Assembly (NCBI RefSeq): GCF_013391085.1
Contig: NZ_CP058334.1
Span: 434,001-498,000, forward strand
Source: Natronomonas halophila
GTDB taxonomy: Archaea > Halobacteriota > Halobacteria > Halobacteriales > Haloarculaceae
DNA length: 64,000 bases
Reading direction: 5' to 3'
This document shows positions 14,536-52,995 of the stretch, one piece after another. Made by a program: the position numbers and the translations under genes. The notes under the pieces were generated by a model. The model had not been told where the DNA came from, ran no database searches, and saw only the letters and a program-made list of their open reading frames with translations. Position 1 is the first letter of the stretch. Every line of letters starts with the position of its first letter.

Positions 14536-15615
14536 TCAGCCGCAGAAAACCTGCGTCACCCAGAGCTCATCGCCACGGATCTCGACGCCAATACCTTCCG
14601 AATTCCAAGCGTCGCTGAGAAGGTTTCGTCGGTGGCCAGAAGAAGCCAACCAGGACTCGACAACGCGTTCAGCGGTCGTATTCGGGCTGGTGCCGTACCC
14701 CTCGCTGTAATAGAGATTTTCACCGACAGCGTTGCAGGTGATGCCTACAGACGTGACTCGATCGTACGAGTCCTCACCGTCAGGGTTTTCATGAGCGTAG
14801 AAGTCCCGTGCGACCATGTCTTGACTATGATTCTTCGCGACGCCGTGGAGCGCCGGGTTGTTCTCGAGCGTCGCGAGGCCGCGCTCGGAGCGAATCTCAT
14901 TCACTTCGCTATGAATCGCCGTTTCGATGGCTTCTTCCTCGCTTTCGGTGTCCGTATCGAGCATTCCAGCGACGGCGCCGGCGCCCGCTTCGGCGTTCTC
15001 ATCGATAGCCGGTACGCCAGTCCCTAAGAACCCGGCGAGAAACAGCGCACCGACCGCGAGAAGTAGAATCGGCGTCACCGTTTTGACCAGGCTGAATATC
15101 GAGCCGAGGAGTCGGCTCAACCAACGATTGAACCGTCGAAGATACGAGGGTAATCGCTTCACGACTTGAAACGGAGCGAGGATCGCTATGATCGCCAAGC
15201 CAGCGATCGTCGCGGCAACGCGACGCCCCTGCGTTGTGATCGAGCGCTGACTATCGTTCTCGGCGTCCTCGTCGTCCGGCCTGGCAATGGAGCCGTCGGG
15301 GTTGACATCCGGGCTTGAAGAGGTCGTGTAGTCCTTCGCGGCGCCCGGGAGCTCCGCGCCAGGGTCCGCCGTGTCGGTGTCGGAATCAGCAGTTTCCTCG
15401 TTTTGCTTTGGCGGGTCTGTCTCTGACCCAAATGCTTCTCCGAGCAATCCGCCGCTACCGCTGCTTCTGAATTCAGGCCCGTGCGTGTCGGCCTGCTTCA
15501 GGCCGGGGCAGTTGTGGTTTTCTGGGAGTCGATGGCTCTTACAGTATTTTCCCGTACAGTAATTACAATCGTACAGGAGCGAACTGCTGTCCCCGCATAT
15601 CGAACACCCCGACAC
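14536..15615 (-). CDS. AN1-type zinc finger / two-helix membrane / CAP-domain protein
   Basis: A 359-residue protein. Residues 4-36 form an AN1-like finger (C4, C7, C17, C20, C25, H28, H34, C36). A disordered linker follows, then two hydrophobic segments near 132-152 and 171-195. The C-terminal 120 residues are a CAP/SCP domain with HSEVNEIRSERGL, HENPDGEDSYDRV, GENLYYS and SGHRRNLLSDAW. The topology places the CAP domain outside the cell or in the particle envelope. CAP domains can bind lipids or act on partner proteins; the role here is unknown. The TATA is TTTTATAAAA at 15637-15646. Confidence 0.82.
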   Translation of the reverse strand: MSGCSICGDSSSLLYDCNYCTGKYCKSHRLPENHNCPGLKQADTHGPEFRSSGSGGLLGEAFGSETDPPKQNEETADSDTDTADPGAELPGAAKDYTTSSSPDVNPDGSIARPDDEDAENDSQRSITTQGRRVAATIAGLAIIAILAPFQVVKRLPSYLRRFNRWLSRLLGSIFSLVKTVTPILLLAVGALFLAGFLGTGVPAIDENAEAGAGAVAGMLDTDTESEEEAIETAIHSEVNEIRSERGLATLENNPALHGVAKNHSQDMVARDFYAHENPDGEDSYDRVTSVGITCNAVGENLYYSEGYGTSPNTTAERVVESWLASSGHRRNLLSDAWNSEGIGVEIRGDELWVTQVFCG

Positions 15616-15703: not shown

Positions 15704-16783
15704 TCAAGATTGCTCGGCGTGCAAGCCCCGGTACTCCGAAATAATCGTGTTAAGATGATTTTCCCATGTAAATTTGTTAGCTTGCTTTTCTCCCTTCTTA
15801 ACCAATTCCGACCGAACCATTTCATCTGAGACAATTTTATCAAGCGCATCTGCAAATTTCGGGACATCGGTCGGATCGTTTATTAAAAGCGCGGCGCCGT
15901 TTGAAATCTCTGGAATCGCACACAAGTCTGATGCGACGACTGGCGTTTTCCTTGTCATGGCTTCGACAATCGGTCGACCAAAGGTTTCGTGAAACGAGGG
16001 ATGGATGAGGCACGCTGCATTATCGTACCAAGTCACGAGTTCGCTGGGTTTGAGGAACCCAAGCGTATGGACATTACCGCTGGTTGATGCTGGAAGGTCC
16101 TCTCGCGTCACGCCAGCGATATAGAGTGGGAGGTCTGCTGCACACGATTGGGCCGCTTTGATAGCAGTTTCCGTATTTTTGATTCCTGGATCAGTTGCGA
16201 CGTGGAGCATATACTGCTCTGGGGCTCCCTCCGGTCGGTTTTGCTTTGGGAGGGTGTAATACACATCATCAATAGCTTCGTACGTTGCCCTCAACCGTGA
16301 GTTGCCAAATGGAATCTGAGACCGAAGCGTCTCTGCAACGTACTCACTAACACAAAAGACCCGGTCCAAGGTGAGTGCTCGCAATACGTCCTGTATGCGT
16401 AGCCGCCATTTTAACCGCCCAGAAACGTTCACTTCATCTGGCAGTTCAGTATTCCAATGCTCCACACCGTGGCTGGTGGCGACAACGGGCACGTCGGTCC
16501 GATAAGCAGGATATTCACCAAACAACTCGTTACACCCGAGATGAAGAAGATCCAACTCATCGGCGTTGATTTTGGTATGCCAGCGAGGTGGAATCGATTT
16601 GTCCGGTAGTTGTCGGCCATCGGTATCAGGACCGAACACGTCTTTAGGATCGCCTCGACAGTAGACAATGGCTTCTATACGGTCGTCGTTTTGCAAATGT
16701 CGTACTAAATTATGGAAATATCGGGTTGGCGCCCCACCAACGTTCCCAGACCCAACCATCAGCCCTACACGGAGTGCTTCCAT
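15704..16783 (-). CDS. GT4-family glycosyltransferase
   Basis: A 359-residue GT-B enzyme. N-terminal GSGNVGGAPTRYFHNL is the acceptor-domain glycine loop. The C-terminal donor domain has the EX7E motif E266-E274 (HETFGRPIVEA). It transfers a sugar from a nucleotide-activated donor to an acceptor such as a surface glycan or lipid. The gene is visibly richer in A+T than its neighbours (TTTATTAAAAG-type codon runs), suggesting separate acquisition. Its promoter TATA is at 16806-16815, divergent from the 34-residue gene. Confidence 0.85.
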   Translation of the reverse strand: MEALRVGLMVGSGNVGGAPTRYFHNLVRHLQNDDRIEAIVYCRGDPKDVFGPDTDGRQLPDKSIPPRWHTKINADELDLLHLGCNELFGEYPAYRTDVPVVATSHGVEHWNTELPDEVNVSGRLKWRLRIQDVLRALTLDRVFCVSEYVAETLRSQIPFGNSRLRATYEAIDDVYYTLPKQNRPEGAPEQYMLHVATDPGIKNTETAIKAAQSCAADLPLYIAGVTREDLPASTSGNVHTLGFLKPSELVTWYDNAACLIHPSFHETFGRPIVEAMTRKTPVVASDLCAIPEISNGAALLINDPTDVPKFADALDKIVSDEMVRSELVKKGEKQANKFTWENHLNTIISEYRGLHAEQS

Positions 16784-17024: not shown

Positions 17025-18731
17025 TCAAAATCCACCGGAGAACTCGTGTATCACTTCCCACGACCCACCGGGGCCGTAGGCGACGAGTGCCGCGTTCCCG
17101 GTCCCGGCAGGGTCCCAGTTCGCCCCGTCTGCGACCGCAAAGTTGGCGTCGTATGTGCTTGCTGCGGCCGACTGAGGGAACAGTTGTTGGCTCTTTTCTT
17201 TAACCACCTCATTTTCATTGTGGTTAACCCGGGTTTCGATACTGACCTCATTTTGATTGACCAACAGGTCATCGCCACCTGAGCCAGCAATCGTTAGCAG
17301 AAGCTCTTTGATTTTTCCAGCCGGGTCTGCTGCCAGTTGGAGCTGGTTATTCGACTCGTCGACTCTCATTCGGGCGATGTCAGACATGTCGTCGAAATAT
17401 ATCGATTTACCCAGCGGAAGCTGGAGATCGTGGGGGACACGCCCGCCGAACATCTGTGTCTGACCGCCCAAATTCCACTCGGTCGGGAACGTGCTGCTAT
17501 CATAGGCGGCCTGAATCCGGCCAGTAACGCGGCTGTAACTCCCTGTCAACTCGATTTTCATCCAGGGATGTTTCGAGGTATCATAGTCGAGATGGTGTGG
17601 ATGCGGGACGTGCCACCAGCCCGGATGTTCTTTTCCAGGTCCGATCGACTGTTTTATCGAGTCCCACGACCCGAGCCCGCTCGAGGAATCGGTCGCGTGA
17701 TGGACGTGTCCGTAAATCACGGCATGGACGGATGGGTCCTCGTTGAGAAGGTCTCGAACCTCGTCCATATTGACCGTCTCGTCGTAGGCCAGCCCAGTGG
17801 TGTACGTTAGGGGCTGATGCGTAAACACAATCTTCGGGCGGCGGGAGGAGTTGAGATGCGATCGGAGGAAGTCGATACAGCCCTGCGGTATCTCGTGATC
17901 GTTGGCGTCATCGGTGGTTGAATACGCGGTATTGAGAACGATGAGGTCGACGTTTTTGTACTCCTCGACGTACCACGTATCAGAATCGCCAGAATAGCCG
18001 TATGGCTCGTACGACCAGTCAGCGCCATAACTACCTGCCTGCTTGTATTCGTGGTTTCCTTGGGAGTAGTGGACTGGGGCGTTTAACCCCGCCCCGTCGC
18101 TGCCGCCGCTATTTTCGATGTAGTCGATCGCCGTCGAGACGTAATATTGGAGGGTGGATTTTGATTCCTTATTGCCTTTGATGAGGTCGCCATTATGGAT
18201 TACAACATCGGGATTCCAGGCATTGATCTCGTCGATGACGATGTCGAGATTAGACTTCCAGCCACTCGATCCGGGAATGTCGTCGTTGGCTGTGCCGCCT
18301 TCCTCGTTGTAGTGCGTGTCACTAAGGACAGCGATCTTCACCGATCCGATAGATTGTTTGTCTGTATAGTGCGATTCGACGTGCTGCTCTGGAATCTTGC
18401 TCTCGGGGGAGCCGTGGCCCAGCTTCGTCCAGGTGTCACCGTCGGCATACCACTCGGTCTGGGTGTCGACAGCGACATAGTACCGTTCAACATTCGGCTC
18501 GACATCGTACGGCGTGCTGTTTACCGCGCCTTCCGGCCCTTTGAACAAGCCGTCGGTGATCTGGTGCGGTTCCTCGAGCATGCTACCAGCCTCCAGCGAG
18601 CCGCTGGCGTCGCTGTTGGCGGCGATCACCATTCCGATGACGCTGCCGCCCGCGAGCCCCGCGAGGACGCCGCGCCGCGTGTGCTTGCTTCCGAGTACGC
18701 TTCGTCCGTCGTCGTCTGATGTGTCGGTCAT
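17025..18731 (-). CDS. Tat-exported calcineurin-like phosphoesterase with fibre-like C-terminal module
   Basis: A 568-residue protein. It has a twin-arginine signal (HTRRGVLAGLAGGSVIG, 17-33). Metallophosphatase motifs follow in order: D138-x-H140 (LSDTH), GDL with D182, GNHE with N226 and H227, H305 (FTHQP), and GHVHH with H342 and H344. They bind a two-metal centre for phosphomono- or diester hydrolysis. Residues 370-568 are a separate β-rich part ending WDPAGTGNAALVAYGPGGSW, which resembles C-terminal modules of viral fibres. This is the last gene of the surface-protein block, 17 bases from the next. Confidence 0.85.
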   Translation of the reverse strand: MTDTSDDDGRSVLGSKHTRRGVLAGLAGGSVIGMVIAANSDASGSLEAGSMLEEPHQITDGLFKGPEGAVNSTPYDVEPNVERYYVAVDTQTEWYADGDTWTKLGHGSPESKIPEQHVESHYTDKQSIGSVKIAVLSDTHYNEEGGTANDDIPGSSGWKSNLDIVIDEINAWNPDVVIHNGDLIKGNKESKSTLQYYVSTAIDYIENSGGSDGAGLNAPVHYSQGNHEYKQAGSYGADWSYEPYGYSGDSDTWYVEEYKNVDLIVLNTAYSTTDDANDHEIPQGCIDFLRSHLNSSRRPKIVFTHQPLTYTTGLAYDETVNMDEVRDLLNEDPSVHAVIYGHVHHATDSSSGLGSWDSIKQSIGPGKEHPGWWHVPHPHHLDYDTSKHPWMKIELTGSYSRVTGRIQAAYDSSTFPTEWNLGGQTQMFGGRVPHDLQLPLGKSIYFDDMSDIARMRVDESNNQLQLAADPAGKIKELLLTIAGSGGDDLLVNQNEVSIETRVNHNENEVVKEKSQQLFPQSAAASTYDANFAVADGANWDPAGTGNAALVAYGPGGSWEVIHEFSGGF

Positions 18732-18748: not shown

Positions 18749-19795
18749 TTAATCCAGTTGCGAGAACACAGCCCCGGCCAGCACGCCGAAGATGAACAGC
18801 GCAAACCCAAGCCGGACGAACCATGCCGAGCCCGACTCGACGTCGTAGGTCACGAAGATCACGTCACCGTGGCCGGTCAGCACACCGCCGTCCAGGGCGA
18901 CGATTTCGTGGTCCGTCATGAACTGCGTGATGGGGCCGGCGAGCTCGTAGTCCTCGCCTTCCTCAAGCGGCGGCCCGCTGCTGCCGTTCACGAAACTCGC
19001 GTTCTGCAGCGACGCCTCGCCACCGCCGAAGTAGACGGGGACGCTCGCCGCTGAGCGGTCGCGCGTATCGTACATGATGCGTGCGTCGGGCGCGGTGCCT
19101 TCGACGCTCAGCACGGGCTCGGCGACCCACTCGCTTCGCTGGCTGTTGGTCAGCACCGCCGGGTACAGCCGCGTCTCCTCGAGGGTGCCGTGCCAGTTCT
19201 GCGCGCTGGGCCGATCGGCGACGGTCTGACTGCTGGTGTTGGTCGCCGTGCCGACGGTCGTGTTCCGACTGACGGTGAACGTCTCGCTGGTGGCGTTCCG
19301 GTTCGCACAGACGAGCGTCCGGTTCGTCGGGTCTGGCGCCGCGACCGCGGCGGTGTGCGAGGCGCGACTGGCGGCGTCGTAGTAGTAGCCCTCGTACGTG
19401 CTCGCCGAGTCGTTGTACGTGAGCACGATCTCGTAGCGGTCGGTCTCGACGGCCAGCAGTGCGCGCGTCGAGCCGTTGTCGACGACGGTGCTGTCGGCAG
19501 TACTGTAGGTGCAGGCGCTCCAGTTGTCGCCGAGGGTGACGTCGAGGTCGGCGCTGACTTGCGAGTCGCTCGCGCCGGTCAGGTAGACGGCGTCGCCGAG
19601 CGTGCTGTTCGCCGAGATGTTCGTGATATCGCCCGTCCGCGTGTTTTCTAGGGTGCCGCCGCCGTCGAGCATCTCGACGTCCTGCTGTTGGTCTTCGAGC
19701 GCGGCGCTGGCGAAGAGTCCGCCGCCAAGGACGGCCCCAAGGACGGACATGATGATGACGGCGACGATAAGCGTCGTGAGTAGGTCCTCGGACAC
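18749..19795 (-). CDS. Membrane-anchored LamG-like surface protein
   Basis: 348 residues from a GTG start (MSEDLLTTL). A hydrophobic N-terminal anchor (7-29) and a C-terminal transmembrane helix (about 325-345, LGFALFIFGVLAGAVF) flank an Asn/Thr-rich extracellular domain with many N-glycosylation sequons. WHGTLEETRLYPAVLTNSQR resembles the closing strand of LamG/concanavalin-like lectin domains. Probably exposed on the cell or particle surface. An inverted repeat at 19830-19844 lies in its upstream region. Confidence 0.72.
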   Translation of the reverse strand: MSEDLLTTLIVAVIIMSVLGAVLGGGLFASAALEDQQQDVEMLDGGGTLENTRTGDITNISANSTLGDAVYLTGASDSQVSADLDVTLGDNWSACTYSTADSTVVDNGSTRALLAVETDRYEIVLTYNDSASTYEGYYYDAASRASHTAAVAAPDPTNRTLVCANRNATSETFTVSRNTTVGTATNTSSQTVADRPSAQNWHGTLEETRLYPAVLTNSQRSEWVAEPVLSVEGTAPDARIMYDTRDRSAASVPVYFGGGEASLQNASFVNGSSGPPLEEGEDYELAGPITQFMTDHEIVALDGGVLTGHGDVIFVTYDVESGSAWFVRLGFALFIFGVLAGAVFSQLD

Positions 19796-20839: not shown

Positions 20840-21220
20840 TTATGCGGACCCCCTGATGACGCGGATGAGCGAGACGTAGAACGCGCAGGTCAGACTCCCA
20901 CCGAACAGGAGCGAGATTTCCAGTGGCGCGCCGAGCCCGATCAGCGTGGTGAGCGGCCAGAAGAGATAGCCGAAGAGGCTGGTCAACAGTCCCAGGACGG
21001 CCAGCAGGCCGGCGCCGCCGATCGTCGAGGCGGCTTGCTTGATCGGCCCGGAGATCTCCTCGAGGGCTTGTGCGGTTTCGCTGTTAGCCGATGCCTCGTC
21101 TCCGTCAGGATTGTCGACGAACAGTTCGGCGACGCCGGCGTCGGTCCAGGCGATGGCGCCACCGCCCCACATGACCGCGCCGATGACGAAGTATGCCATG
21201 ATGACGTTGCTGAAGCGCAT
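20840..21220 (-). CDS. Membrane protein, 126 aa, three hydrophobic segments
   Basis: MRFSNVIMAYFVIGAVMWGG forms the first segment. An acidic loop (VDNPDGDEASANSETAQ) follows, then LLAVLGLLTSLFGYLFWPL and ISLLFGGSLTCAFYVSLIRV. Three bases from its neighbours on each side. Function unknown. Confidence 0.68.
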   Translation of the reverse strand: MRFSNVIMAYFVIGAVMWGGGAIAWTDAGVAELFVDNPDGDEASANSETAQALEEISGPIKQAASTIGGAGLLAVLGLLTSLFGYLFWPLTTLIGLGAPLEISLLFGGSLTCAFYVSLIRVIRGSA

Positions 21221-21222: not shown

Positions 21223-23241
21223 TTAGAGTCCCCTCCGTGTGGCCGCGATTGCGACGAACGCGATGACTGTGATGAACATGAGGCTTTCAGACACCCAGCC
21301 GATGACGTAGAACCCGCCGATGAAGCCGACCGCCGTGAGGCCGACGACTTCGGTTGAAGCGGTCGTCGAAGCGACAGCGGCGCTCCCAAAGACGGTGACG
21401 AGCATCGCGAGGAACGTCAGTGCGCCACCGCCACCGCTCGGAAGGTGGGCTGGGACGTCCGCGAGGACGGGCAAGAGCGCGTACTCGTTGTCGTAGGTCG
21501 TCCGCACGGCGAACGTGATCGATTCCTCGATCGTCTCGCCGTTCGACAGCGACGCGGTCGCCTCGACGGTGACGTTCCCGCCGCCCCAGCCGGTGAGGTT
21601 CAACTCCGGCTGCACCGTTGCCGACCCCGTGCCGCTCGTCTGGTAGAGCGTCGACGAGTTCGTCTCGTTCTGGGCGCGAATGGTGAGGTCCCACGACTCA
21701 ATCTCGACGGTTTCGCTGTCGAAGTCGACAGTGACGCCGGCGGTGTCGCTCTCCAGGAGCGTTCTGGTGCTCGGCGCGACCGTGATCAGCGCGGCTTGCT
21801 CGTCGAGTGTGATCGTGCCGTCCGGCCGAACGGTGACTTCCTGGGCGCTGTCATCGGTCGGCGTGTACTGGCCTTTCACCGTCCGGGCGCCGGTTTCCGT
21901 GTTGATGAGGACGAGGCGATGCCGGACGTTGTACCGTAGTTGCGCTGGGAATTCGCCGTTCGCGCCGAAGTAGTCGCCCTGGACGGTTCGCCAGTCGATA
22001 TCGCCGGACTCGTTCGCGAGACCGCGCTGAATCAGCATGACGGTGTCCTCATCGGCGAACCGACCAGAGTAGTCGATGAGTTCGAACGTTGGCGAGACGG
22101 CTTGCTCGGTGTCGTTCAGCAGGTAGACGATATCGCTCTCGACGAGGCTTTGCTTGTAGATACGGCGTGGATAGTAGCCGTCGGCCTCGGCGACCACGAC
22201 GAAGGGGCGATCTGCCGGGAGCCCGGTCATATTGACGGTGCCGTCCGTCGCAGTTCGGGAGACGATCAGGCTCTCGCCATCTGAGAAATAGAACCGGAGC
22301 TCGACGTCGATCCCGTCGATGAGCGTCGTCGGGTCAGACTCTTCGCGGATATAGAGCGTGCCTGGCGTGGCGAACGTGTGGGGGTTCGAATCGCTTCCTG
22401 ATTGTGCGGTGTCGCCGGTCGAGTCGGTCGCGACGACGTACCACTCGTGTTCGCCACCCTCGCTGACGGTCGCGGTGTAGGTTGCTGTTCCGTTGCTCGT
22501 GACGGTGGTCGTGCCGTTCAGTTCCCCGTCGACGTACCATTCGAGCGTGACCTCCTCGTTCGTGGTGTCGAAGTCCGGGTCGGTGACGTTGACGCTGAGG
22601 TTCACCTCGACGTCGGAGAACTCTTCGCCGTTGGTCGGTGAGGGATCGGATAGCGTCGGGCCGCCCTTCGGCTCGACGAGCGTGAGTTGCGCGCCCGACG
22701 AGATGGAGATCGTCGCGACGCCCGACCCACCGGCCTGAACGAGTTCGTCATCGCCGTTCGCTCGGTTGACGCGAATCCACTGGCCCGCGCTGAACCCGTG
22801 GACATAGAGCGTGCCCGTGCCGCCGACGTCGAACTCGGTGGTCGTCGTGTCCTGCAGGTCGACGTCCCGATAGGTGATCGAGGAGACGCCTGACACCCCG
22901 ACGGTCTGGATGCCGGTGGTGTTCGCCTCCATCGTGCCGCCGTTCGAATCGATCGCTGACAGCGTCGGGGCGTCGCTACTTGGCCCGGCCAGTCTCGTCG
23001 ATGATCCAGCAGGGCCATCGACGGTCGTGTTCTGGATGGTGACGGAGCCGTCAGTGCCGAAGGGGTTGTCGCCGGCGATGCCGGTGTCTTCGTCGAGCGT
23101 GACGCTGATGCCATCCGGGTGGTCGAACATCACGCCGGTGCCAGCCGTCAGGAGCGTGGCGGCGCCGGCAGTACCGACCACGACAAGCACGGCTACCAGG
23201 AGCGCGAGCTGTACCTGGCTGAGCCGAGTGGTTACGTCCAT
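21223..23241 (-). CDS. Large surface protein with Ig-like and carboxypeptidase-regulatory-like domains, 672 aa
   Basis: N-terminal signal-anchor (LALLVAVLVVVGTAGAATLL). A β-rich region follows. An Ig/PKD-like domain (SDVEVNLSVNVTDPDFDTTN ... EHEWYVVATDSTGD) and a carboxypeptidase-regulatory-like domain (GTLYIREESDPTT ... LPADRPFVVVAEADGYYPRR) come next, then further β-domains and three C-terminal hydrophobic segments (LTFLAMLVTVFGSAAVA, VVGLTAVGFIGGFYVIG, SLMFITVIAFVAIAA). It has many N-glycosylation sequons. Size, architecture and place suggest the main spike or adhesin of the particle; inference. Confidence 0.78.
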   Translation of the reverse strand: MDVTTRLSQVQLALLVAVLVVVGTAGAATLLTAGTGVMFDHPDGISVTLDEDTGIAGDNPFGTDGSVTIQNTTVDGPAGSSTRLAGPSSDAPTLSAIDSNGGTMEANTTGIQTVGVSGVSSITYRDVDLQDTTTTEFDVGGTGTLYVHGFSAGQWIRVNRANGDDELVQAGGSGVATISISSGAQLTLVEPKGGPTLSDPSPTNGEEFSDVEVNLSVNVTDPDFDTTNEEVTLEWYVDGELNGTTTVTSNGTATYTATVSEGGEHEWYVVATDSTGDTAQSGSDSNPHTFATPGTLYIREESDPTTLIDGIDVELRFYFSDGESLIVSRTATDGTVNMTGLPADRPFVVVAEADGYYPRRIYKQSLVESDIVYLLNDTEQAVSPTFELIDYSGRFADEDTVMLIQRGLANESGDIDWRTVQGDYFGANGEFPAQLRYNVRHRLVLINTETGARTVKGQYTPTDDSAQEVTVRPDGTITLDEQAALITVAPSTRTLLESDTAGVTVDFDSETVEIESWDLTIRAQNETNSSTLYQTSGTGSATVQPELNLTGWGGGNVTVEATASLSNGETIEESITFAVRTTYDNEYALLPVLADVPAHLPSGGGGALTFLAMLVTVFGSAAVASTTASTEVVGLTAVGFIGGFYVIGWVSESLMFITVIAFVAIAATRRGL

Positions 23242-24278
23242 AGCTGTTGGGTGTAGTCGTCGTCGATCTCGGTGGTTGTCGCCGCAGCATCGTTGAGCAC
23301 GACGTTATCGACGATGGCGTTGATGTAGCCGCCGTAGTCGGAGTGTTCGGCGAACAGATACAGCGCTCGGGCGAAGTCGTTCATCGTCCCGAGCGTCCCG
23401 CTTTCCTGGACGTTCGTGCTCGTAGTCGTGTTCACGTAGAACGTCCAGTCGGCGGTGCTGTCACTGCTCTTCGTGAAGACGATGCGATACCGACTCCCGT
23501 CGTCGACGGCTGTGTCCGTCTCAGCGATGTATCGGTTTCCGGATGCATCGATGAAGATCACGCCAAGGTGGCCTGACCGGAGCAACAGCCCGTCGCCGAT
23601 TCGAATCGTGAATCGCTCGCCACTCGAGGGGTTTTCCCGAACCCCGAGGATGTGGTCTCCCCATTCGTTGCTCGACACGTTCTCGATTGTGAATGCGAAC
23701 GAGGCTTCGCCGTTCAGCGTGGAGCCGTACGTCGAGAGGTTCCCCTGGAAGGTGACGTAGTCGCCGCTCCCATCGCCCTCAAGCGCGTAGTCAGCTTGAT
23801 ACGTGCCGAACGTCCACGCCGGCCCCTGGATGTCGCCGTCAGCGCTCCCGATATAGTCCGGTAACACCGTGCCGTCGCCGTCATGCATCGGGTAATGGTG
23901 GATTGCGTTCGCGAACGCCGGGCTCTGGACCGGACGTCGTCCGAGCGCCTTCACGCCGTTGTGCTGGATTCGCACGCCCGGCGCCTGGGCGTTCTCGGTG
24001 GGGAGGACCGGGACGACGCCGATTTCGCCGCCGACGAACACTCGATAGACGGCGGCTTCGTCGGGACGGACGCCACTCGTCGCGAACACTCGGAGGGACG
24101 TGATGCCGCTGGATGTCTGGAATCGGAGGGTGGCGATCTGGTCGTCGCCACTGGCGCCGTTGAGGTCGGTTCGAAGCCATGCCTCGCCCGGCTGCGTGTC
24201 GGTCGGGTCGCTCGTTAACGCGGCGAGGCCAAGGCGCTCGGTGCGAAATCGCTCGGCTTCGATGATGCCGCGCCCCAT
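23232..24278 (-). CDS. LamG/concanavalin-like fibre protein, 348 aa
   Basis: The N-terminal 40 residues (ERLGLAALTSDPTDTQPGEA-type, then WLRTDL) resemble the attachment segment of viral fibres. Residues 130-340 form a LamG-like β-sandwich (ASFAFTIENV, YRIVFTKSSDSTADWTFYVN, YINAIVDNVVLNDAA). No signal peptide or membrane helix is present, unlike its neighbours, so it may attach through its N-terminus to a particle protein. Probable glycan-binding receptor protein. Overlaps the 672-residue gene by ten bases. Confidence 0.75.
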   Translation of the reverse strand: MGRGIIEAERFRTERLGLAALTSDPTDTQPGEAWLRTDLNGASGDDQIATLRFQTSSGITSLRVFATSGVRPDEAAVYRVFVGGEIGVVPVLPTENAQAPGVRIQHNGVKALGRRPVQSPAFANAIHHYPMHDGDGTVLPDYIGSADGDIQGPAWTFGTYQADYALEGDGSGDYVTFQGNLSTYGSTLNGEASFAFTIENVSSNEWGDHILGVRENPSSGERFTIRIGDGLLLRSGHLGVIFIDASGNRYIAETDTAVDDGSRYRIVFTKSSDSTADWTFYVNTTTSTNVQESGTLGTMNDFARALYLFAEHSDYGGYINAIVDNVVLNDAAATTTEIDDDYTQQLWT

Positions 24279-24280: not shown

Positions 24281-24547
24281 TCAGGCCTCCGAGTTATACC
24301 AGAGTTCACCCGCGTCCGGGCTGGATGGATCAGTGGTTCGGGGGACGAGTCGGATGCGGTCGGCGCGAAGCTTTTCGAGCGGGTCGTCACTCTCGACTGG
24401 GAACACGCCCTGCGGGGCGGCCTCGACGGTTTCCGCGCCGGCGTAGAATCCGGCGGCGCCGGCGGCGGCGATGCCGGCGGCGCCGGCGAGCACGCGGCGT
24501 CGCGAGAGTTCGTCGGGATCGTCGTTGGTTGGTGAGTCGTCGGTCAT
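24281..24547 (-). CDS. Short Tat-signal protein with fibre-type C-terminal motif, 88 aa
   Basis: SRRRVLAGAAGIAAAGAAGF is a twin-arginine signal. The C-terminus, TTDPSSPDAGELWYNSEA, matches the SDPTDTQPGEAWLRTD segment at the N-terminus of the adjacent fibre protein. It may be a small exported adaptor for fibre attachment, or a truncated fibre. Two bases upstream of the fibre gene. Confidence 0.68.
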   Translation of the reverse strand: MTDDSPTNDDPDELSRRRVLAGAAGIAAAGAAGFYAGAETVEAAPQGVFPVESDDPLEKLRADRIRLVPRTTDPSSPDAGELWYNSEA

Positions 24548-25098: not shown

Positions 25099-25290
25099 TT
25101 AGCCTCCTTGCAGCCAGCTGACGACGAAGAGCGCGACCGTCGCCGGCAGGACCAGCTGGGCGAGGAACTGCGCCTCGGTCGGCAGATTCTCCATCGGTGC
25201 GTAGCTCGTGATGAAGAACATCCACGCTGGCATGACTGCGACGAGGCCGAAGAACCCCAACAGGGCGAACGGGAAATCGAACGGGTTCAT
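25099..25290 (-). CDS. Two-helix hairpin membrane protein C, 63 aa (candidate coat protein)
   Basis: MNPFDFPFALLGFFGLVAVM gives helix 1 and FLAQLVLPATVALFVVSWL helix 2, with the same QLxxP pattern as A and B. Its ATG overlaps the stop of the 1087-residue gene by four bases, implying coupled translation. Confidence 0.7.
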   Translation of the reverse strand: MNPFDFPFALLGFFGLVAVMPAWMFFITSYAPMENLPTEAQFLAQLVLPATVALFVVSWLQGG

Positions 25291-28200
25291 AGCAACCCCC
25301 CGTCGTCGAACTCGAGGCCGAAGCCGTCGCCGAACCCGAAGTCGGCATCGAACCCAGCGAAGACGCCATCCCAAGCCCCGTCGGCACGACGCTGACGGTC
25401 TTGCTGCCGGGCGTCACCCGTGTCAGAGCGGTCTCCGGCGACACCGGCGCCGGGGTCGAAAAACGACTGGACGTCCGCGAACGCACCGGCAAAGCCGTCA
25501 TCGAGCGCTTGGGCGACGGGTAACTCGCCCGTCCGACGCAGGCTCACCGGCTGGGCTTCGAGCGTCTCCTGGGACGGCGCCCGGGGCGTCTGCGTGCCGG
25601 TCGTCGCCACGGTAAAGACGGTTTCCTGCAGCCAGCCCGGCGCCAGCACCGACTCAGTCGCCGGCATCGGCGCCGTCTCCGTCGTCGGCGATCCGAACGC
25701 CAGCGCCCACGGCGACGCCTCCGGGACCGTCGTGCTTTCAGCCCGCGACTCCCAGCGAGTCTCGAAGAACGGCTCGGCGCGACGCTCCTGTCGAAGCTCC
25801 TGGCGCGTCTCCTGCCGCGTTTCCTGCCGGGTCTCCTGTCGGGTTTCTTGCCGAGTGTCGAGACGCGGCTCCTGACGCGTTTCGGAGCGCTGCTCTTGGC
25901 GCGTCTCCGGCCGTGCGTCCTGCCGGGTGTCGCCACGCGGCTCCGTCTCGACGAACGGCTCGGTCTCCGTCCCGACCTCCTGGTCAGTCGCGACGCCCGT
26001 CTCCGTCTGGACGACGTTGCCCTCGAAGTCGCTGATGCTCTCCGAAGCGGTATCGAGCAGTCCCAGCGTGCCGGCGCCCGTCACGGTGATCGCGCCGAGC
26101 CCGACGCGTTCGGGACGCCCGCGAAGCACGTCCGTCTCGGTAACCGTCGGGGTCTGTGCCGCGAAGAGGCGTTCGCGAGCGCCGTACGTGACGGCGGCGG
26201 CCAACCCACCGCTGGCGGCGGCCGTCTGCTGGGTTGTCAGCAGGCGGCCGCTCGCTGCGGCTTCGGCCGCCGCGCTTCGCCGCGGCCGAACGGGGTCGAG
26301 CCCGATGACGTCGCCGTCCTCGGTGAAGAGCGGGCCGCGACTGGCGCGGCTACCGGTCGGGGCCAGCGGGTCGGTCGCGCCCTCGTAGTCGCCCGTGGCT
26401 TGTGCGCGCTGTTGTTGGGCGCGGCGAGTGATGTCGCCGCTCATCTGGTCGCGCGGGCTACCCTCGAGGACTTCCGAGCGACTCGGGTCGTAGTCGGTGA
26501 ACGGCGCGTCACCGGCGTTAGTCTCCGTGTCGGCTCGCCCCTCGGTTTCGACGCGCGGCGGGACGAGGCCGGCGCCGGCGCGCCACTCGACGCTCGTCCC
26601 GCCGACGCGTTCCCGAGCACCCTCGAAGAGATCTCGGGCTCGCCGTCGAGCGCGCGCCCGCCGGGAGGGGCCAGTGACGCCCTGTGCCTCGTCGACCATT
26701 TCGCTGGTCAGTGTTTCCGGCCGTTCGTCGGGTAAGTCGGTTCGAGGAGCTTCGGATTCCGACGGCAACCGCTGGGGTTGCGGGTCGATATGTCCCTCGC
26801 GAACGCCTGGAACAGCGCGGGCGAGTCGGGACGGGATAGCGCCCGACCGTGCAGCGGTGATGGCGATTTCCTCGCCAGGCTGGATTCCGAACGCGGCGGC
26901 CCGACCAGCTCGAGCGCCGCCGATGCGTCGAGCGCCACCGATGACGCCGCCGCTTGCGACGACGCTCCCTCCGACCTGCCCGAGCGTTCGCCGCGGCTCT
27001 TCCATCGCCTGTTGTGTGAAGCCGGCGCCGGCGAGCGCAGCAGCGCCAGCGGCTTCGGTAGCGAACTCCCTGCCATCGCCGCGAGCCGTCTCGGCGGCCG
27101 CCGCCCCACCGAACTCGGCGGCTTCCTTCACGGTAAGGGTGAGGCCGGCCGGATCGGCAATCGTTCCAACGCCCTGGACGGCGCCCTCGACGAGAGCTTC
27201 CCGCTCGCCAGGTGTCGATGCGGTCATCCCAACCGGGTCGGTCACGCGGTACGCCGCGGCACCACCCGGCGTCCGAGCGAGGTCGCCGGCAGTCTCTGCG
27301 ATCGGCTCCCAGAACTGCTGTTGGGTGGTCTGGGACGCCGAAACGAGGACGTCCTCGACGCGCGGCCCGCGACCGGGCTGGGTCGTTGCTGCCGGCGACG
27401 TCGGGAGCAACTCGCCGACGTAAATCGTCGAGTCACCGAACTGCTCTTCGTCGTTCGCTTGCGCGAACTCGCGGCGAACGCGCGCCCGGTTGACAACGCT
27501 GCCCTCGACCGGGCTCTCGAGGCCGGTTGCGTCTTCGACGGTTTCGACGGCGCCGCTGAAAATGTCCTCCTGCTGTGATGCCTGCTGGAGGCGCTGTTCG
27601 CGACTGCCGTAGCCGGGGAGCAATCGGGCTTGCCAGCGGCCATCGTCGGTCTGCTCGACAACGAAGTCCTCGCCGGGCTCCAGGTCGACTCCGGTCTCGG
27701 CTTCCAGTTGCGCTTCGAGTTGCGCGGTTGCGCGGTCGCGAGCGCTTGCCCGCTCCTGTGAGAACCGTTCCTCCCACGCCTGCTGGCGCTGCTCTCGAAT
27801 CTGGCTCTCGATCTGCTGGGTCGCGGCGCCGATCCGTGCCGATCGGGACGGAACGGCGACGAGGTCGTCCCCGCGGCGCCTAATCGCTATATCGCTTGGA
27901 TCGTCGGCCCAGGCGAACTCATCGATCGCTCGCTGCTCCAGCTGGGCCGCCTGTTCCTGGTAGGGTGAACTGTCGACGCCCTCGAGGCCTTCTTGGAGCG
28001 TTTCGTCGACCTCTTCACGCGCAAGCCGCTGGGCTTCGGCCTCGGTTCGCGTTGTCTGCTCGGCCTGTTCCTGTCGAGCGGCTTCGGCGACGCGTTCGGT
28101 ACGCGTTTCCTCCGTCTCCCCTGAGTTATCGCGAAGCCGCGGATCGACATCCGATTGGAAGTCGCCGCGACCGGTCTCGGGCGGCGTCCCACCGGGGTCG

Positions 28201-28550
28201 GTGTCCTCGACGGGTTGCGTCGTCGAGTCCTGCTGGCGCTCGCGGGCCTCGCGAGCACCTTGCTCAGTGCGCGTGTCACCCTCACCGCCGGCGTCACCGT
28301 CCGTTTCTTCGTTGCCGTCGTCGAGACGCGGGTCGACGGCGTCCTGGTAGTCACCGCGTGAGGTGTCAGTCTCGCCACCGGTGTCGGCGTTTGACGTGTC
28401 AGTCTCCTGTTGGCGGTCGCGGGCTTCGCCGGCGCCGAACTCCGTTCGGGTCTGCTCGTCGGTTGCATCGGTGCTGGTGCCGGTGCTCTCACTCGAGGAG
28501 TCGTCTGTGTCGTCGGTGCCGCTACCACCGGACGGATCTGCGATTACCAT
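25287..28550 (-). CDS. Giant repeat-rich protein, 1087 aa (candidate particle or ejection protein)
   Basis: The N-terminal 170 residues carry about three imperfect repeats: TRTExGAxEARxRQQ, later GDYQ or GDFQ, then VDPRL. Residues about 170-330 are Gln/Arg/Glu-rich helices, probably coiled coil. The middle holds Gly/Ala-rich hydrophobic stretches (GGAAAAETARG, GSVVASGGVIGGARRIGG, ASGGLAAAVTYG) that could be membrane-active. Residues about 872-924 are a tandem ETRQ array. The end is aromatic and acidic (FGFGDGFGLEFDDGGLL). No enzyme motif seen. It is the largest gene of the block and sits beside the candidate coat genes. Confidence 0.78.
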   Translation of the reverse strand: MVIADPSGGSGTDDTDDSSSESTGTSTDATDEQTRTEFGAGEARDRQQETDTSNADTGGETDTSRGDYQDAVDPRLDDGNEETDGDAGGEGDTRTEQGAREARERQQDSTTQPVEDTDPGGTPPETGRGDFQSDVDPRLRDNSGETEETRTERVAEAARQEQAEQTTRTEAEAQRLAREEVDETLQEGLEGVDSSPYQEQAAQLEQRAIDEFAWADDPSDIAIRRRGDDLVAVPSRSARIGAATQQIESQIREQRQQAWEERFSQERASARDRATAQLEAQLEAETGVDLEPGEDFVVEQTDDGRWQARLLPGYGSREQRLQQASQQEDIFSGAVETVEDATGLESPVEGSVVNRARVRREFAQANDEEQFGDSTIYVGELLPTSPAATTQPGRGPRVEDVLVSASQTTQQQFWEPIAETAGDLARTPGGAAAYRVTDPVGMTASTPGEREALVEGAVQGVGTIADPAGLTLTVKEAAEFGGAAAAETARGDGREFATEAAGAAALAGAGFTQQAMEEPRRTLGQVGGSVVASGGVIGGARRIGGARAGRAAAFGIQPGEEIAITAARSGAIPSRLARAVPGVREGHIDPQPQRLPSESEAPRTDLPDERPETLTSEMVDEAQGVTGPSRRARARRRARDLFEGARERVGGTSVEWRAGAGLVPPRVETEGRADTETNAGDAPFTDYDPSRSEVLEGSPRDQMSGDITRRAQQQRAQATGDYEGATDPLAPTGSRASRGPLFTEDGDVIGLDPVRPRRSAAAEAAASGRLLTTQQTAAASGGLAAAVTYGARERLFAAQTPTVTETDVLRGRPERVGLGAITVTGAGTLGLLDTASESISDFEGNVVQTETGVATDQEVGTETEPFVETEPRGDTRQDARPETRQEQRSETRQEPRLDTRQETRQETRQETRQETRQELRQERRAEPFFETRWESRAESTTVPEASPWALAFGSPTTETAPMPATESVLAPGWLQETVFTVATTGTQTPRAPSQETLEAQPVSLRRTGELPVAQALDDGFAGAFADVQSFFDPGAGVAGDRSDTGDARQQDRQRRADGAWDGVFAGFDADFGFGDGFGLEFDDGGLL
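25780..25925 (-). repeat. Tandem 12-bp repeats encoding ETRQ
   Basis: Within the giant gene, degenerate 12-base units (minus-strand GAGACNCGNCAG type) repeat about ten times, changing mainly at third codon positions. The array encodes ETRQ, EPRL and ELRQ variants. Confidence 0.7.
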
Positions 28551-31880: not shown

Positions 31881-32144
31881 TCAGATCCGCCGCATGAGCG
31901 GCGATGCGAGTGCGATCAACAGGAGCAGTCCGGCGAACATCGGGAGCAGCTCGAGGATCGTCAGCGTGGTGCCGCTGGCGTTCGAGCTGTTGACGGACTC
32001 GAGGACAACCGGGATGAAGACCTCGACGGCGATGATCGCCGCAATCAGGAGCCCGATGAAGAGTCCTGCGAGGTTCGTCCCCTGCCCACGCGTGCCCGCG
32101 GAGAAGGCACGCGCCTCCTCTTTGAGTCGCTTAATTGGATTCAT
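31881..32144 (-). CDS. Two-helix membrane protein, 87 aa
   Basis: MNPIKRLKEEARAFSAGTRG is a basic N-terminus. Helix 1 is LFIGLLIAAIIAVEVFIPVV; after a short Ser/Asn loop comes helix 2, ILELLPMFAGLLLLIALASP. It heads the long minus-strand membrane/surface operon (31881 down to 17025). A TATA-like TTTGATAATGG on the minus strand near 32181-32191 and GGTGG before the ATG fit a short-leader transcript. Confidence 0.66.
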   Translation of the reverse strand: MNPIKRLKEEARAFSAGTRGQGTNLAGLFIGLLIAAIIAVEVFIPVVLESVNSSNASGTTLTILELLPMFAGLLLLIALASPLMRRI

Positions 32145-33027: not shown

Positions 33028-33873
33028 ATGGCTAAAGCAGAATCGCCCGGTATCCCTGAATCGTCCTGGACGAACCCTTTCCAGGAAGGAACGTTCCTTC
33101 ACCAGCTGTATGGCACAGTTGTTCGGCAGGAACGCGACCTCATCATAATTATCGACGATATGAATGCCCGGCGTGGGACCGGGAAGACCGTCGCCTCGAT
33201 GCAGTTAGCGAACGCGATGGACCAGACGCCTGAGGGGCTTACGTGGGACAAGGTGTCCCTCGAGCCGGAGGAGATCCGGAACGCCTACGCCGAGCAGCCG
33301 AAGCGCTCGGGCCTGGTGTTCGACGAGGCTGAAGTCGGCGCCTCGAATCGGCAAGCGATGTCGAAGGCGAATCAGGCGCTGCGGGAAATCATGTCGATGG
33401 GGCGAGTCGAGCAGAAGTACGTCGTCATCAACGCCCCGCTGAAGGACTTTATCGACCAGGACCTGCAGAAGCTCGCCGACGTCTGGATCAGCCTCACCAG
33501 GAAGGGCGCCGGCGTCGTCCATCACTTCAAATGGGAACGGTACTCGAAGACGCTGATGACGCCGAAAAAGCAGTTCATCGAGTTTGACGATATCCCCGGC
33601 GACCACGATCTCAGGAACGTCTACAACAAACTCACCCAGGCAAAGCGGGCGAAAATTGGCGGTGAGGACGGCGATGGGTTCGTACCCATGGACGAGCACG
33701 AGGAGAAGTTGAAGCAGGCGCGGAAGCAAGCGCGCCAAGAAGCGCGGGACGAGATTGTCCAGGGGATATTCGCCCATCCAGAAATAGAGGAAACAGCGGT
33801 GAGTCAGCGTATGGTCGGTGAGGCGATCGGCGTCTCACAGACCACCATTAGCAATATTTTACAGGAGAATTGA
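33028..33873 (+). CDS. P-loop ATPase with C-terminal helix-turn-helix, 281 aa
   Basis: Walker A ARRGTGKT (47-54) preceded by strand DLIIIIDDM. Walker B GLVFDE (95-100). Conserved-looking SMGRVEQKYVVINAPL and DVWISLTRKG sensor-like segments. The last 30 residues (SQRMVGEAIGVSQTTISNIL) form an HTH. The fold looks HerA/FtsK- or Zot-like. It could power particle assembly, DNA translocation or partition. No membrane helix. Confidence 0.75.
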   Translation: MAKAESPGIPESSWTNPFQEGTFLHQLYGTVVRQERDLIIIIDDMNARRGTGKTVASMQLANAMDQTPEGLTWDKVSLEPEEIRNAYAEQPKRSGLVFDEAEVGASNRQAMSKANQALREIMSMGRVEQKYVVINAPLKDFIDQDLQKLADVWISLTRKGAGVVHHFKWERYSKTLMTPKKQFIEFDDIPGDHDLRNVYNKLTQAKRAKIGGEDGDGFVPMDEHEEKLKQARKQARQEARDEIVQGIFAHPEIEETAVSQRMVGEAIGVSQTTISNILQEN

Positions 33874-35022: not shown

Positions 35023-35324
35023 TGTCCGCGCTATCCATCATTCGCGACTTGGGGCTCCGGTCGCTCGCAGCTGCCTGGGTCGAGATGGGGTTCAACGCCG
35101 TGCTGCTGTTCGGCATCCCGTACGTAGTGTATCGCTTCGTGACCGACGCGCCGATCATCCATCGTCGAACGGCGGTCGTCGTCTTCGGCATCGCGACGAT
35201 CGCGGCGACAGTGATGACGATCGTGACGATCTACGGCGCGGCGACGGATGCTGGCTGGTACACGCAGGCCGACTCGATGCGAGCCAGCATCGAGGCCGAT
35301 CCGGAGGATACCGAGCAAGGATGA
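35022..35324 (+). CDS. Two-helix membrane protein, 100 aa
   Basis: Helices LAAAWVEMGFNAVLLFGIPYV and AVVVFGIATIAATVMTIVTI separated by a short charged loop (DAPIIHRRT). The acidic tail overlaps the glycosyltransferase start by four bases. Possibly a membrane partner of the glycosyltransferases. Confidence 0.62.
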   Translation: MSALSIIRDLGLRSLAAAWVEMGFNAVLLFGIPYVVYRFVTDAPIIHRRTAVVVFGIATIAATVMTIVTIYGAATDAGWYTQADSMRASIEADPEDTEQG

Positions 35325-36313
35325 GTAGTGATTTGTCAACACCCACGCTGGCCACCCCATCGTTAGATGGCATCGAACCACGCGTCGCCATCGTCAGCCC
35401 TGGCGACCGCACCGACCGTCTCACCGTACCGCTAGCTGCTGCCGGCATTGACTACTCGGTTAACCCCGTCGACCCCACAACGTTCGACGTTGTCATCTGC
35501 GATACGCCAGATCGGGAGATGCTTCGGACGGTCGTCGAGTGCCGGCTCGACGGCACGCCCGTCCTGTTCCGGCAGCGTGGCGATCCATTCTGGGGCATCG
35601 GCGAATGGATTGATTCGCGTGTGAAGAAGGCCGTCCTGTTTCGGATGCTGCGGGCCGTCGACGGGTGTCTCGCGATCGCCCCCCACCAGGCGAGCAAGTA
35701 TTCGCGGAAGACGGGTGTGCAGTCCGACATCGTGACGCTGCCGAAGGACGTCGCCGAGTGGCCGGATAGCGATCACACCGACGAGGAGTTACGCATCATC
35801 TCGCTGACGAACGCGACGTATCCCGACAAGTACCGGCCGCTACTGGAACTCGCGCCCGCCGTCGACGAGGTTCTGGAGTCGGGGACGTGGCGCATCGGGT
35901 CGTGGTGTGACAAGCACGGCGAGGAAATCCGGGGGGTGCTCGGCTCGTACGACAACATCGAGTACGGCATCCAGTTGGACGCCGAAGCTGAGTTAGAATG
36001 GGCGAACGTGATGATTCACCATTCCGGCCTCGACGTCCTCCCGAACGCGATATTGGAAGGGATGGCCGCTCGCCTGCCCGTGTTGACGAATCCACACGTC
36101 GCGTTTAGTCAGTCGCCAGCCCCGACCGTGATCTCCAGTGGCGACCGCGTCCCCGAGTTGCTTGCCCAGCTGCGCGACCCCGAGGGTCGACAGGTCGTCG
36201 GCGACCGCGGCCACGACTACGTCGCTCGCGCGCACGACCCCGAAGCCGTCGGCCACGAGCTGGTGCGCGCGGTGACACGGCTCACTGACATCGGAGGTGA
36301 CGGGAAACGATGA
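35321..36313 (+). CDS. Glycosyltransferase-like protein (GT-B fold), 330 aa
   Basis: RVAIVSPGDRTDRLTVPLAA begins the N-terminal Rossmann domain; the DVVICDTPDRE and GCLAIAPHQASKYSRKTGVQ segments match a GT4 acceptor domain. The donor domain has WANVMIHHSGLDVLPNAILE-GMAARLPVLT, with one acidic residue at the EX7E position and H/G in place of the first Glu. Probably modifies a surface glycan. Overlaps both neighbours by four bases. Confidence 0.7.
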   Translation: MSSDLSTPTLATPSLDGIEPRVAIVSPGDRTDRLTVPLAAAGIDYSVNPVDPTTFDVVICDTPDREMLRTVVECRLDGTPVLFRQRGDPFWGIGEWIDSRVKKAVLFRMLRAVDGCLAIAPHQASKYSRKTGVQSDIVTLPKDVAEWPDSDHTDEELRIISLTNATYPDKYRPLLELAPAVDEVLESGTWRIGSWCDKHGEEIRGVLGSYDNIEYGIQLDAEAELEWANVMIHHSGLDVLPNAILEGMAARLPVLTNPHVAFSQSPAPTVISSGDRVPELLAQLRDPEGRQVVGDRGHDYVARAHDPEAVGHELVRAVTRLTDIGGDGKR

Positions 36314-37491
36314 GCGCAGACTCGCCGACGGTCTCGGTGGTCATCCAACCCGGCAAAAAGGATAACGGGCCGATGACCCACCAGACCGAATCGCTCTGTG
36401 ACATCCTCTCGGCCGTCGCGACGGTTCAGATCGTCGCGTTGAACGCCGCAGTCGTCGCCCCGCTGGCCGACGACTACGACATCCTCGAGGTCGGCGACGG
36501 GCAGTTTCCCGACGGGATCGCCGCGGCGGCCGTCCAGTTCCTCGTTAATCAGATCCGGCTGGGCGTCGCGCTGGCCCGCGCCGACACTGACGTCGTGTTA
36601 TTCTACGGCGCGACGACCTACGCCATCCCGATGGCGATCGCGCGCCTCGGCGGCGCCGACGTAATTGCCCAACCGAAGGGCGATGTCGCGGCGGCCTGCT
36701 ATGCCGACTGGCGCCGCTCAACACCGACGGCCGTCGCGCGGGTGCTCGCAACAGGCGTGAAACTCCTGGAACGAACCGGCTTTGCGGTTGCTCACGGCAC
36801 CGCCGTCTACACCCCGACGATGGCCCGGTCGTTGGGACTCGACCCCGAGTCGGCGAGCGTGTATGCCGATGCCGCCCGGTTCGTCGACACGGAGGCCTTT
36901 TCCGTTGACACGCCCCCGGCCGAACGTCCCGACCACGTCGTGTTTGTCGGTCGGCTGGATGCCGACAAACGCATCGACATCATCCTCGAGGCCGCGCGAC
37001 AGCTTGGCCCCGAGATCGACGTGACGCTCGTCGGTAACGGCCCGCAGGCCGACCGGCTGGCCGACGCCCCGCCGAACGTTACCCACGAAGGCTGGGTGCC
37101 CCACGACGAGGTACCGGCGTATCTCGCCGACGCGCAGGCCGTGATACTCGCCTCGGAACAGGAGGGGCTGCCGACGGTGCTGCTGGAAGCCTACGCCTGC
37201 GGGACGCCCGTCGTCGCCCCGCGGGTCGGCGGCATCGAAGACGCCATTACGGACGCCCTGACGGGTGAAGTGTATTCGACGCCCGATGCCGACCAACTCG
37301 CGGCGAGCGCCCGCCGTGTTGTGGAAGAATACGACAGCGACGTGCTGGCACAGAATTGCCGCGCCATCGCCGAAGGCCGGTTTTCACGAGCGGCAGCGGT
37401 CGACCGCTATCGAACGATGCTCGAACAACTCTCCACGCAGTACGCTGCATCGACAACAACCACACCCGAGATTGCGGAGGTACCGACATGA
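36310..37491 (+). CDS. GT4-family glycosyltransferase, 393 aa
   Basis: A complete GT-B protein. VVFVGRLDADKRIDIILEAA starts the donor domain, VGNGPQ binds the nucleotide, and EX7E is E285-E293 (EQEGLPTVLLE) followed by AYACGTPVVAPRVGG. It transfers a sugar from a nucleotide donor. Paired with the preceding GT-like protein, so the element may build a two-sugar modification of host or particle glycoproteins, which are rich in Asn sequons here. Confidence 0.85.
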   Translation: MSADSPTVSVVIQPGKKDNGPMTHQTESLCDILSAVATVQIVALNAAVVAPLADDYDILEVGDGQFPDGIAAAAVQFLVNQIRLGVALARADTDVVLFYGATTYAIPMAIARLGGADVIAQPKGDVAAACYADWRRSTPTAVARVLATGVKLLERTGFAVAHGTAVYTPTMARSLGLDPESASVYADAARFVDTEAFSVDTPPAERPDHVVFVGRLDADKRIDIILEAARQLGPEIDVTLVGNGPQADRLADAPPNVTHEGWVPHDEVPAYLADAQAVILASEQEGLPTVLLEAYACGTPVVAPRVGGIEDAITDALTGEVYSTPDADQLAASARRVVEEYDSDVLAQNCRAIAEGRFSRAAAVDRYRTMLEQLSTQYAASTTTTPEIAEVPT

Positions 37492-37943
37492 CGGCGAATC
37501 GCTGGTGGGTCAAGATGGCCGCCCGCTGGCAAGCGCGTATCGACGCCATTCAGGGTCAGATTCAGGCGATAAGTCTTCTTGCCACCGGGTTTTCGACGTT
37601 CTCGATTATGCTGCAGGGCTTTGGAAAAGGTGAGTGGGTACCGTATCTCGGCGCGCTCGTCGCTATCTCGCTGCCCATCTATGCCTTCCTTTACTTTGAA
37701 GGAGGTGTCTGGAATCAGGTCGGGCGCGATCGGGCCGATAAGAGTTCGAACTTCTCGGCGCCCGCGGGCCGCATCATCGTCGAGATGTATGCGCGCTCGC
37801 GCGAAGCTGCCCGCCGAGGGCGGCCACTTTCCGAGGAGGAACGAGACGCCATTAAGGCCGAAGCCGATGCAGCGTTCCTCGAGTTTCGCGACGGCTACGA
37901 TATAGATCAACACGACACTGACCAGCAGGAGGCCACCCGATGA
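37488..37943 (+). CDS. Membrane protein with two helices and charged tail, 151 aa
   Basis: MTANRWWVKMAARWQARIDA is an amphipathic start. Helices are ISLLATGFSTFSIMLQGF and YLGALVAISLPIYAFLYF. The soluble tail is charged and helical (RSREAARRGRPLSEEERDAI). The ATG overlaps the GT4 stop by four bases. Unknown function. Confidence 0.65.
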   Translation: MTANRWWVKMAARWQARIDAIQGQIQAISLLATGFSTFSIMLQGFGKGEWVPYLGALVAISLPIYAFLYFEGGVWNQVGRDRADKSSNFSAPAGRIIVEMYARSREAARRGRPLSEEERDAIKAEADAAFLEFRDGYDIDQHDTDQQEATR

Positions 37944-45923: not shown

Positions 45924-45940
45924 GTTTCCGTATAAGTGGA

Positions 45941-45964
45941 TGGGACCGCCGTGACACGAACATC
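45941..45964. other. Element-element junction (attP-like)
   Basis: The sequence of the left boundary (TGGGACCGCCGTGACACG) restarts here, preceded by the element's right end (GTATAAGTGGA). This is the junction expected of the excised circle or of a tandem array. Confidence 0.8.
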
Positions 45965-46014
45965 TCGGTTTCCGCCGCCGTTGCCGTACTTCGAACTGAT
46001 TGTTTTCTTATGAG

Positions 46015-47055: not shown

Positions 47056-47534
47056 CGGTCTCCCTCCAGGACATCGCTCATCAAGCGATCCGTTTCTTCT
47101 CGGAGCCTCTCGAGGTCTTTAATAGGGTAGAAGCCAAGCCCGGATTCGCCCTCCAGGAGGTCTCGACAGACATCGCGCTTCAGCTTCTGGATATCATACT
47201 CGGTTAAATAGCGCCCTTCCTCAATCGGTTCTTTATCAGCGTATTCCAGCTTTTCATCGTGAAGCGTGTACGCGCCGGTAACGGCTGCATGGACTCGGAG
47301 GAGAGTCCAGCGAAGTTCCCGGATGGTGTCGAACATCACGTCGGGCGTCATACCCGACCGGACGCCGATTTCGTGGTAGAATTCGGCGTCCCAGGTCCGC
47401 TCGATTGTTTTGTGGCAGTCTGAGCAGACGGTAATGAGGTTCTGGTCCTCATCGGTTCCGCCGTATCGACGAGGCACGACGTGGTGTTCTTCGAGGTGGT
47501 CGGTCGCGTCACAGAATCGGCAGTTATCGTTCAT
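47052..47534 (-). CDS. HNH endonuclease-like protein, copy 2
   Basis: Identical 160-residue product to 5848-6330, with EEHHVVPRRYGG and SDCHKTIE intact. Confidence 0.82.
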   Translation of the reverse strand: MNDNCRFCDATDHLEEHHVVPRRYGGTDEDQNLITVCSDCHKTIERTWDAEFYHEIGVRSGMTPDVMFDTIRELRWTLLRVHAAVTGAYTLHDEKLEYADKEPIEEGRYLTEYDIQKLKRDVCRDLLEGESGLGFYPIKDLERLREETDRLMSDVLEGDR

Positions 47535-52986: not shown

Positions 52987-52995
52987 CATTCTGTT

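Follow-up and report, generated by a model that had tools for sequence, protein, structure and literature searches.

Our main finding is that a gene in the 64,000-nucleotide stretch analyzed here (the window, which lies in a 3.21-Mb chromosome) may encode a modular, Tat-exported and envelope-active enzyme of a provirus related to the lemon (spindle)-shaped haloviruses. The enzyme would be docked on the virion via a LamG protein and would cut a phosphodiester of the host coat, a reading that we hold with slightly better than even confidence. The gene and the parts of its product are as follows:

17025 to 18731, minus strand: Tat-exported metallophosphoesterase of 568 aa (predicted export), an uninterrupted open reading frame with a PF00149 match (E 7.7e-18)
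18603 to 18731, minus strand: predicted Tat signal, residues 1 to 43 (TRRGVLAGLAGGSVIGMVIAANS), an RR motif and 20 uncharged residues
18357 to 18602, minus strand: N-terminal module, residues 44 to 125 (GSM..GPEGA..YYVAVDTQTEWYADGDTW), common to L018, pHTUR06 and Halorussus L070
17463 to 18344, minus strand: two-metal calcineurin-like catalytic domain, residues 130 to 423, defined by PF00149, homologue alignment, and profile and fold comparison
17028 to 17192, minus strand: C-terminal fibre-end module, residues 514 to 568 (..ADGANWDPAGTGNAALVAYGPGGSWEVIHEF..), matched in 26 IMG/VR loci
58229 to 59935, minus strand: identical second copy of the gene (100% identity), in the tandem second provirus copy

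Judging from GC content at the three codon positions (0.59/0.42/0.69) and an acidic composition (15% acidic versus 6% basic residues), the reading frame looks like real coding sequence. The predicted export signal has TRRGVL at residue 18, then the uncharged stretch, and no transmembrane segment was found beyond it; matches of residues 8 to 41 to CDP-archaeol synthase were discarded as signal-peptide noise. The protein ends in ...GGSWEVIHEFSGGF, which corrects the ending given in an earlier note on this DNA. The full-length structure model is poor (pLDDT 44), and structural comparison was limited to the trimmed core, residues 124 to 421 (model pTM 0.79). It is conceivable that such a protein is a chance fusion, or a decayed passenger gene without function, as could be argued from a GC3 below that of the structural genes and from the fact that we found no orthologue with the full architecture outside this provirus. 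We consider this very improbable in view of a frame intact in two copies, with all metal ligands and the Tat signal kept, an acidic halophilic composition and a tight operon position.

The PF00149 match spans residues 132 to 345 and scores 66 bits against a gathering cutoff of 21.5. All ligand motifs are present (SDTHY at 137, NGDLI at 180, GNHE at 225, FTHQP at 303 and GHVHH at 341), and the metal ligands D138/H140, D182, N226/H227, H305 and H342/H344 are invariant across seven homologues; the complete two-metal site and the predicted Tat export described in the earlier note are borne out. GpdQ is the top PDB profile match (E 5.2e-10), followed by Rv0805, SMPDL3 and Mre11-type enzymes, and it is also the top fold match of the trimmed model (3d03, E 5.9e-8, TM 0.56-0.60, 14% identity). 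By profile and modelled fold, the enzyme thus appears to belong to a GpdQ/Rv0805/SMPDL3-like group, outside the GpdQ, SpdA and CpdA equivalogs (best NCBIfam score 27.8 bits against a cutoff of 400). GpdQ (PDB 3d03, 2dxl, 2zo9) and the class III PDE Rv0805 share the two-metal calcineurin-like fold and its ligands with the provirus enzyme, but neither has its Tat signal, N-terminal module or fibre-like C-terminus. Mre11/SbcD, a DNA-repair identity raised by Mre11 entries in both fold and sequence scans, was rejected on the higher rank of GpdQ, and is also contradicted by the Tat signal and the fibre-like end; no Rad50/SbcC partner gene was seen adjoining the gene. Identity to GpdQ and Rv0805 is too low for their likeness to predict the substrate. 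A phosphodiester, rather than a teichoic acid, is probably cut, a reasonable guess from the GpdQ-nearest fold. The teichoic-like polymers proposed in the earlier note were set aside, since haloarchaeal envelopes are not known to contain such polymers.

The viral setting that had been supposed for the gene holds, since it lies inside a 41.2-kb provirus with an integrase, an Orc1/Cdc6 protein and an LSV-48N-like spike. The elements that define this provirus are:

4726 to 45962, no strand: provirus copy 1, 41.2 kb, with ~32-bp overlap or att-like repeats at its bounds
45931 to 64000, and on to window coordinate ~87163 beyond the window, no strand: provirus copy 2, 99.94% identical to copy 1
21223 to 23241, minus strand: Ig-domain spike or tail protein, homologue of LSV-48N CDS0012 (35.5% identity, E 2e-26)
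20840 to 21220, minus strand: small membrane protein conserved beside the spike gene, with profile matches in several sister elements
25287 to 28550, minus strand: structural-region protein of 1087 aa, conserved in sister elements
31881 to 32144, minus strand: putative major capsid protein of 87 aa with two transmembrane segments, resembling His1 gp21 (VP21)
33028 to 33873, plus strand: ATPase/DnaA-like protein common to the spindle-shaped haloviruses BLv25 and His1 (E 4e-22 to BLv25)

The two copies stand head-to-tail with 9 mismatches, 11 gaps and about 32 common bases at their junction, and are either a true dimer or a trace that an active circular form has left in the assembly. The gene set also includes a C5 methylase, TFB and glycosyltransferases; neither terminase nor portal was detected among the provirus proteins scanned. 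Besides the spike and ATPase homologies, the capsid-like protein is weakly similar to His1 VP21 (35% over 60 aa, a weak E of 7e-4 in a small comparison) and has matches in L112, L114 and L116, and the provirus holds His1 gp31/gp32 homologues (1e-56, 46.5%). Two glycosyltransferase genes adjoin the gp32 homologue (35321-37943, plus strand), in the His1 order gp31-gp32. The provirus is related to the lemon-shaped haloviruses LSV-48N and His1, and its virus would apparently be lemon-shaped too. LSV-48N, a Haloferax virus (PP151251), has lemon-shaped particles by TEM, with particle proteins found by LC-MS/MS (PMC12714723). It has the homologous spike, the ATPase, an Ig-like protein and a comparable gene order, but its genome is 24.9 kb, profiles detect no LamG gene in it and the phosphoesterase has no match there, whereas the provirus is larger and in tandem.

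Relatives of the spike were found by profile in 28 of 272 sampled haloarchaeal genomes, and several of these loci also hold ATPase, Ig-like or capsid-like proteins. One of the carriers, the 75.8-kb Halomicrobium urmianum plasmid NZ_CP084093.1 (L120/L134), has the spike gene three times at an exact spacing of 14,077 bases, with one more in the chromosome; the repeats apparently represent concatenated copies of a spindle-virus-like element of ~14 kb. Another related provirus with a spike gene has beside it, in the opposite orientation, a gene for a trypsin-like protease whose N-terminus contains an RR motif (L114:6011-7177, plus strand).

The place of the phosphoesterase gene within the provirus is defined by its upstream neighbor, the proposed docking partner of the enzyme:

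18749 to 19795, minus strand: LamG-like protein bounded by two transmembrane segments, one at either end, directly upstream of the phosphoesterase gene with a 17-nt gap

A LamG gene followed by the gene of a Tat-exported protein is found in three elements, namely the window provirus, L018 (G056) and L112 (G342), with transmembrane segments at both LamG ends in all three; the 17-nt gap is matched by one of 9 nt in L018 and by a start/stop codon overlap in L112 (ATG and LamG end both at 12963). The catalytic domain is apparently swapped in L112, where the slot holds a Tat-exported GH28-type beta-helix protein (23.5 bits against a cutoff of 22.9). Against a model built without it, this protein shows a weak N-module match (E 0.0015 if the Tat part is included, none if it is not). 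In L018 the gene is incomplete: the contig ends after the Tat signal and N-module, so that any enzyme domain would lie beyond the contig end. The N-modules of the window, L018 (29% over the whole N-terminus) and plasmid pHTUR06 (37%, in a protein carrying a repeat-propeller-like domain) are clearly homologous by sequence comparison. Moreover, the module occurs in the chromosomal Halorussus Tat phosphoesterase L070 (E 5.6e-12), and weaker matches of the ATDTG/GD.W type are common in haloarchaeal beta-helix proteins. In the other fetched sister loci, profiles detected no LamG or N-module gene except for a partial LamG match within the spike of L115 and, in L129, a weak match of the N-module to a protein that is itself Tat-exported and beta-helix-like. 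The Halomicrobium L134 and Halobaculum L129 plasmids have other Tat-exported, beta-helix-like proteins and no detected LamG gene; here the beta-helix label comes from reading the sequence, since Pfam assigned no such family. A low-GC gene (L112:14823-15794, minus strand, GC3 0.43) adjoins the GH28-like enzyme gene, and genes resembling it stand near beta-helix or phosphoesterase genes in the glycan clusters L017, L040 and L038.

The other catalytic domains in this slot fit an exchangeable host-range tool, and the phosphoesterase is probably one such interchangeable tool for passing the host's coat. They also bear on phosphate scavenging, by which an extracellular phosphodiesterase or nuclease would supply the infected cell with phosphate released from glycerophosphodiesters or from extracellular DNA. 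Haloarchaea are known to draw phosphorus from extracellular DNA, and the closest solved relatives of the enzyme include the phosphodiesterases GpdQ, Rv0805 and SMPDL3, but phosphate nutrition makes little sense for a slot that in L112 apparently holds a polysaccharide-type fold in place of the phosphoesterase. With no phosphate-related neighbor genes seen either, we regard this explanation as improbable.

The C-terminus is of a viral type. Residues ~514-568 resemble the terminal part of fibre-type proteins at 26 IMG/VR loci (in two of which the match is internal; one example has 58% identity over 48 aa, E 2e-10), so that the pattern is not due to chance, and the protein has the virus-type C-terminal module looked for in a virion tailspike or fibre protein. 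The earlier note had taken some 200 residues to be fibre-like; only the last ~50 are recognisably so, because residues 421-500 match nothing among the fetched sequences. That note had also considered that this region might be a phosphatase-associated domain of non-mobile genes. Instead, its members are fibre-type proteins of viruses and beta-helix proteins encoded in the chromosomal glycan clusters L017, L039 and L040; the chromosomal phosphoesterase relatives, whose alignment covers the catalytic core, lack the module. The N-module and the place behind the LamG gene are nevertheless a stronger argument than the C-terminus. Elsewhere in the provirus, a second Tat-signal protein of 88 aa (24281-24547, minus strand) ends in a fibre-like PDAGELWYNS stretch, and directly after it comes a 348-aa protein (23232-24278, minus strand) with a similar PGEAWLRTD stretch.

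The main rival explanation is that the enzyme was captured from a host and is secreted for lysogenic conversion rather than built into the virion. Released, or kept on the lysogen surface, it would alter the envelope so as to remove receptors or exclude superinfection, in concert with the products of two adjacent genes:

15704 to 16783, minus strand: family-4 glycosyltransferase (Pfam PF00534), cargo gene adjoining the phosphoesterase gene
14536 to 15615, minus strand: AN1 zinc finger and CAP-domain protein, cargo gene

In the latter protein the AN1 zinc finger is joined to a CAP domain of the extracellular type. These neighbors are compositional outliers like the phosphoesterase gene, with GC3 values of 0.49 (glycosyltransferase) and 0.68 (CAP gene) next to 0.69, versus 0.81-0.89 in most of the structural block. 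Such values fit recently acquired cargo, and are compatible with both a tailspike-like enzyme and lysogenic conversion. Related phosphoesterase genes also lie in chromosomal surface-glycan clusters that include sulfatases and glycosyltransferases (L016, with sulfatases and an FkbM methyltransferase, and L038). Lysogenic conversion is further favored by L070 of Halorussus salinisoli, a chromosomal Tat phosphoesterase in which the N-module and the catalytic core stand together in a non-viral context; this module is therefore no proof of a virion protein. L070 and two other chromosomal enzymes, L036 and L037, combine a Tat signal and a phosphoesterase (26-27% identity over the whole alignment) outside a viral setting, and differ from the provirus enzyme by a different, longer C-terminal region, without the fibre-end module.

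The relatives, whose cores are 22-31% identical to that of the provirus enzyme, also include viral ones. In the tailed provirus of G094, the phosphoesterase appears as a tail-fibre-like gene (L014), beside L015 with portal and head protease, and in a tailed provirus of Haladaptatus (L071, with terminase and portal) it lies among structural genes. Both are unrelated to the window provirus, and they imply that viruses use such phosphoesterases among particle genes. This speaks against lysogenic conversion, as do the tight linkage of the gene to LamG where the structural block ends, the Tat proteins of other folds kept in the slot of sister elements, and the virus-fibre-like C-terminal end; we judge it unlikely, though well ahead of a decayed gene. 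No relatives were found in phage records, and a plasmid search with the phosphoesterase gave only the N-module on pHTUR06. Among IMG/VR viral contigs, no relative of the whole protein or core was found at the sensitivity used, nor any in searches with the N-module, phosphoesterase-fibre, spike or LamG; the C-terminal module alone was found. The gene family is therefore either rare or so divergent that the pattern scan misses it.

Action at the cell surface, as the earlier note had it, appears to be the best fit to Tat export, a virus-type C-terminus and a viral location, and a viral envelope-active enzyme is now better supported than from sequence reading alone. That the enzyme is probably present on the virion we infer from its architecture, its viral location and the conserved slot. 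In such a virion-borne role, the phosphoesterase would be expressed late, together with the LamG membrane protein encoded upstream, and exported folded via Tat. Its N-terminal module would then dock on LamG in the membrane where the virion forms, so that particles would carry the enzyme. On contact, it would cut a phosphodiester of the host surface coat, either a glycan decoration or a lipid head group, much as phage tailspikes cut capsule.

More generally, but only tentatively and with less than even confidence, we suggest that the large lemon-shaped viruses of haloarchaea have an exchangeable cassette for attacking the envelope. In this cassette, a twin-transmembrane LamG protein would sit in the virion membrane and hold an enzyme exported by Tat, and host range would be set by the catalytic domain of this enzyme, be it a phosphoesterase, a GH28-like beta-helix or another. 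The phosphoesterase would then be the phosphodiester-cutting counterpart of phage tailspikes, and would point to an undescribed phosphodiester in the host surface coat, which its substrate would reveal. To our knowledge, envelope recognition and breaching by the spindle-shaped viruses of haloarchaea are poorly known, and this reading would offer a concrete enzyme to assay, LamG as its candidate docking partner and an exchangeable slot comparable across viruses. A non-exhaustive search of the literature brought up no archaeal virus with a metallophosphoesterase of virion type. HFTV1, another halovirus, has an enzyme-like protein in its particle, with similarity to polysaccharide deacetylases (PMC12494034).

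Modular virus-borne envelope enzymes are already known as a kind, of which the phosphoesterase would be a variant. It resembles the phage tailspikes and depolymerases in its anchor-like N-terminal part, its apparently exchangeable catalytic domain and its neighborhood of structural genes. Unlike them, it is a predicted Tat-exported protein of a spindle-virus-related provirus, and its catalytic domain is a metallophosphoesterase.
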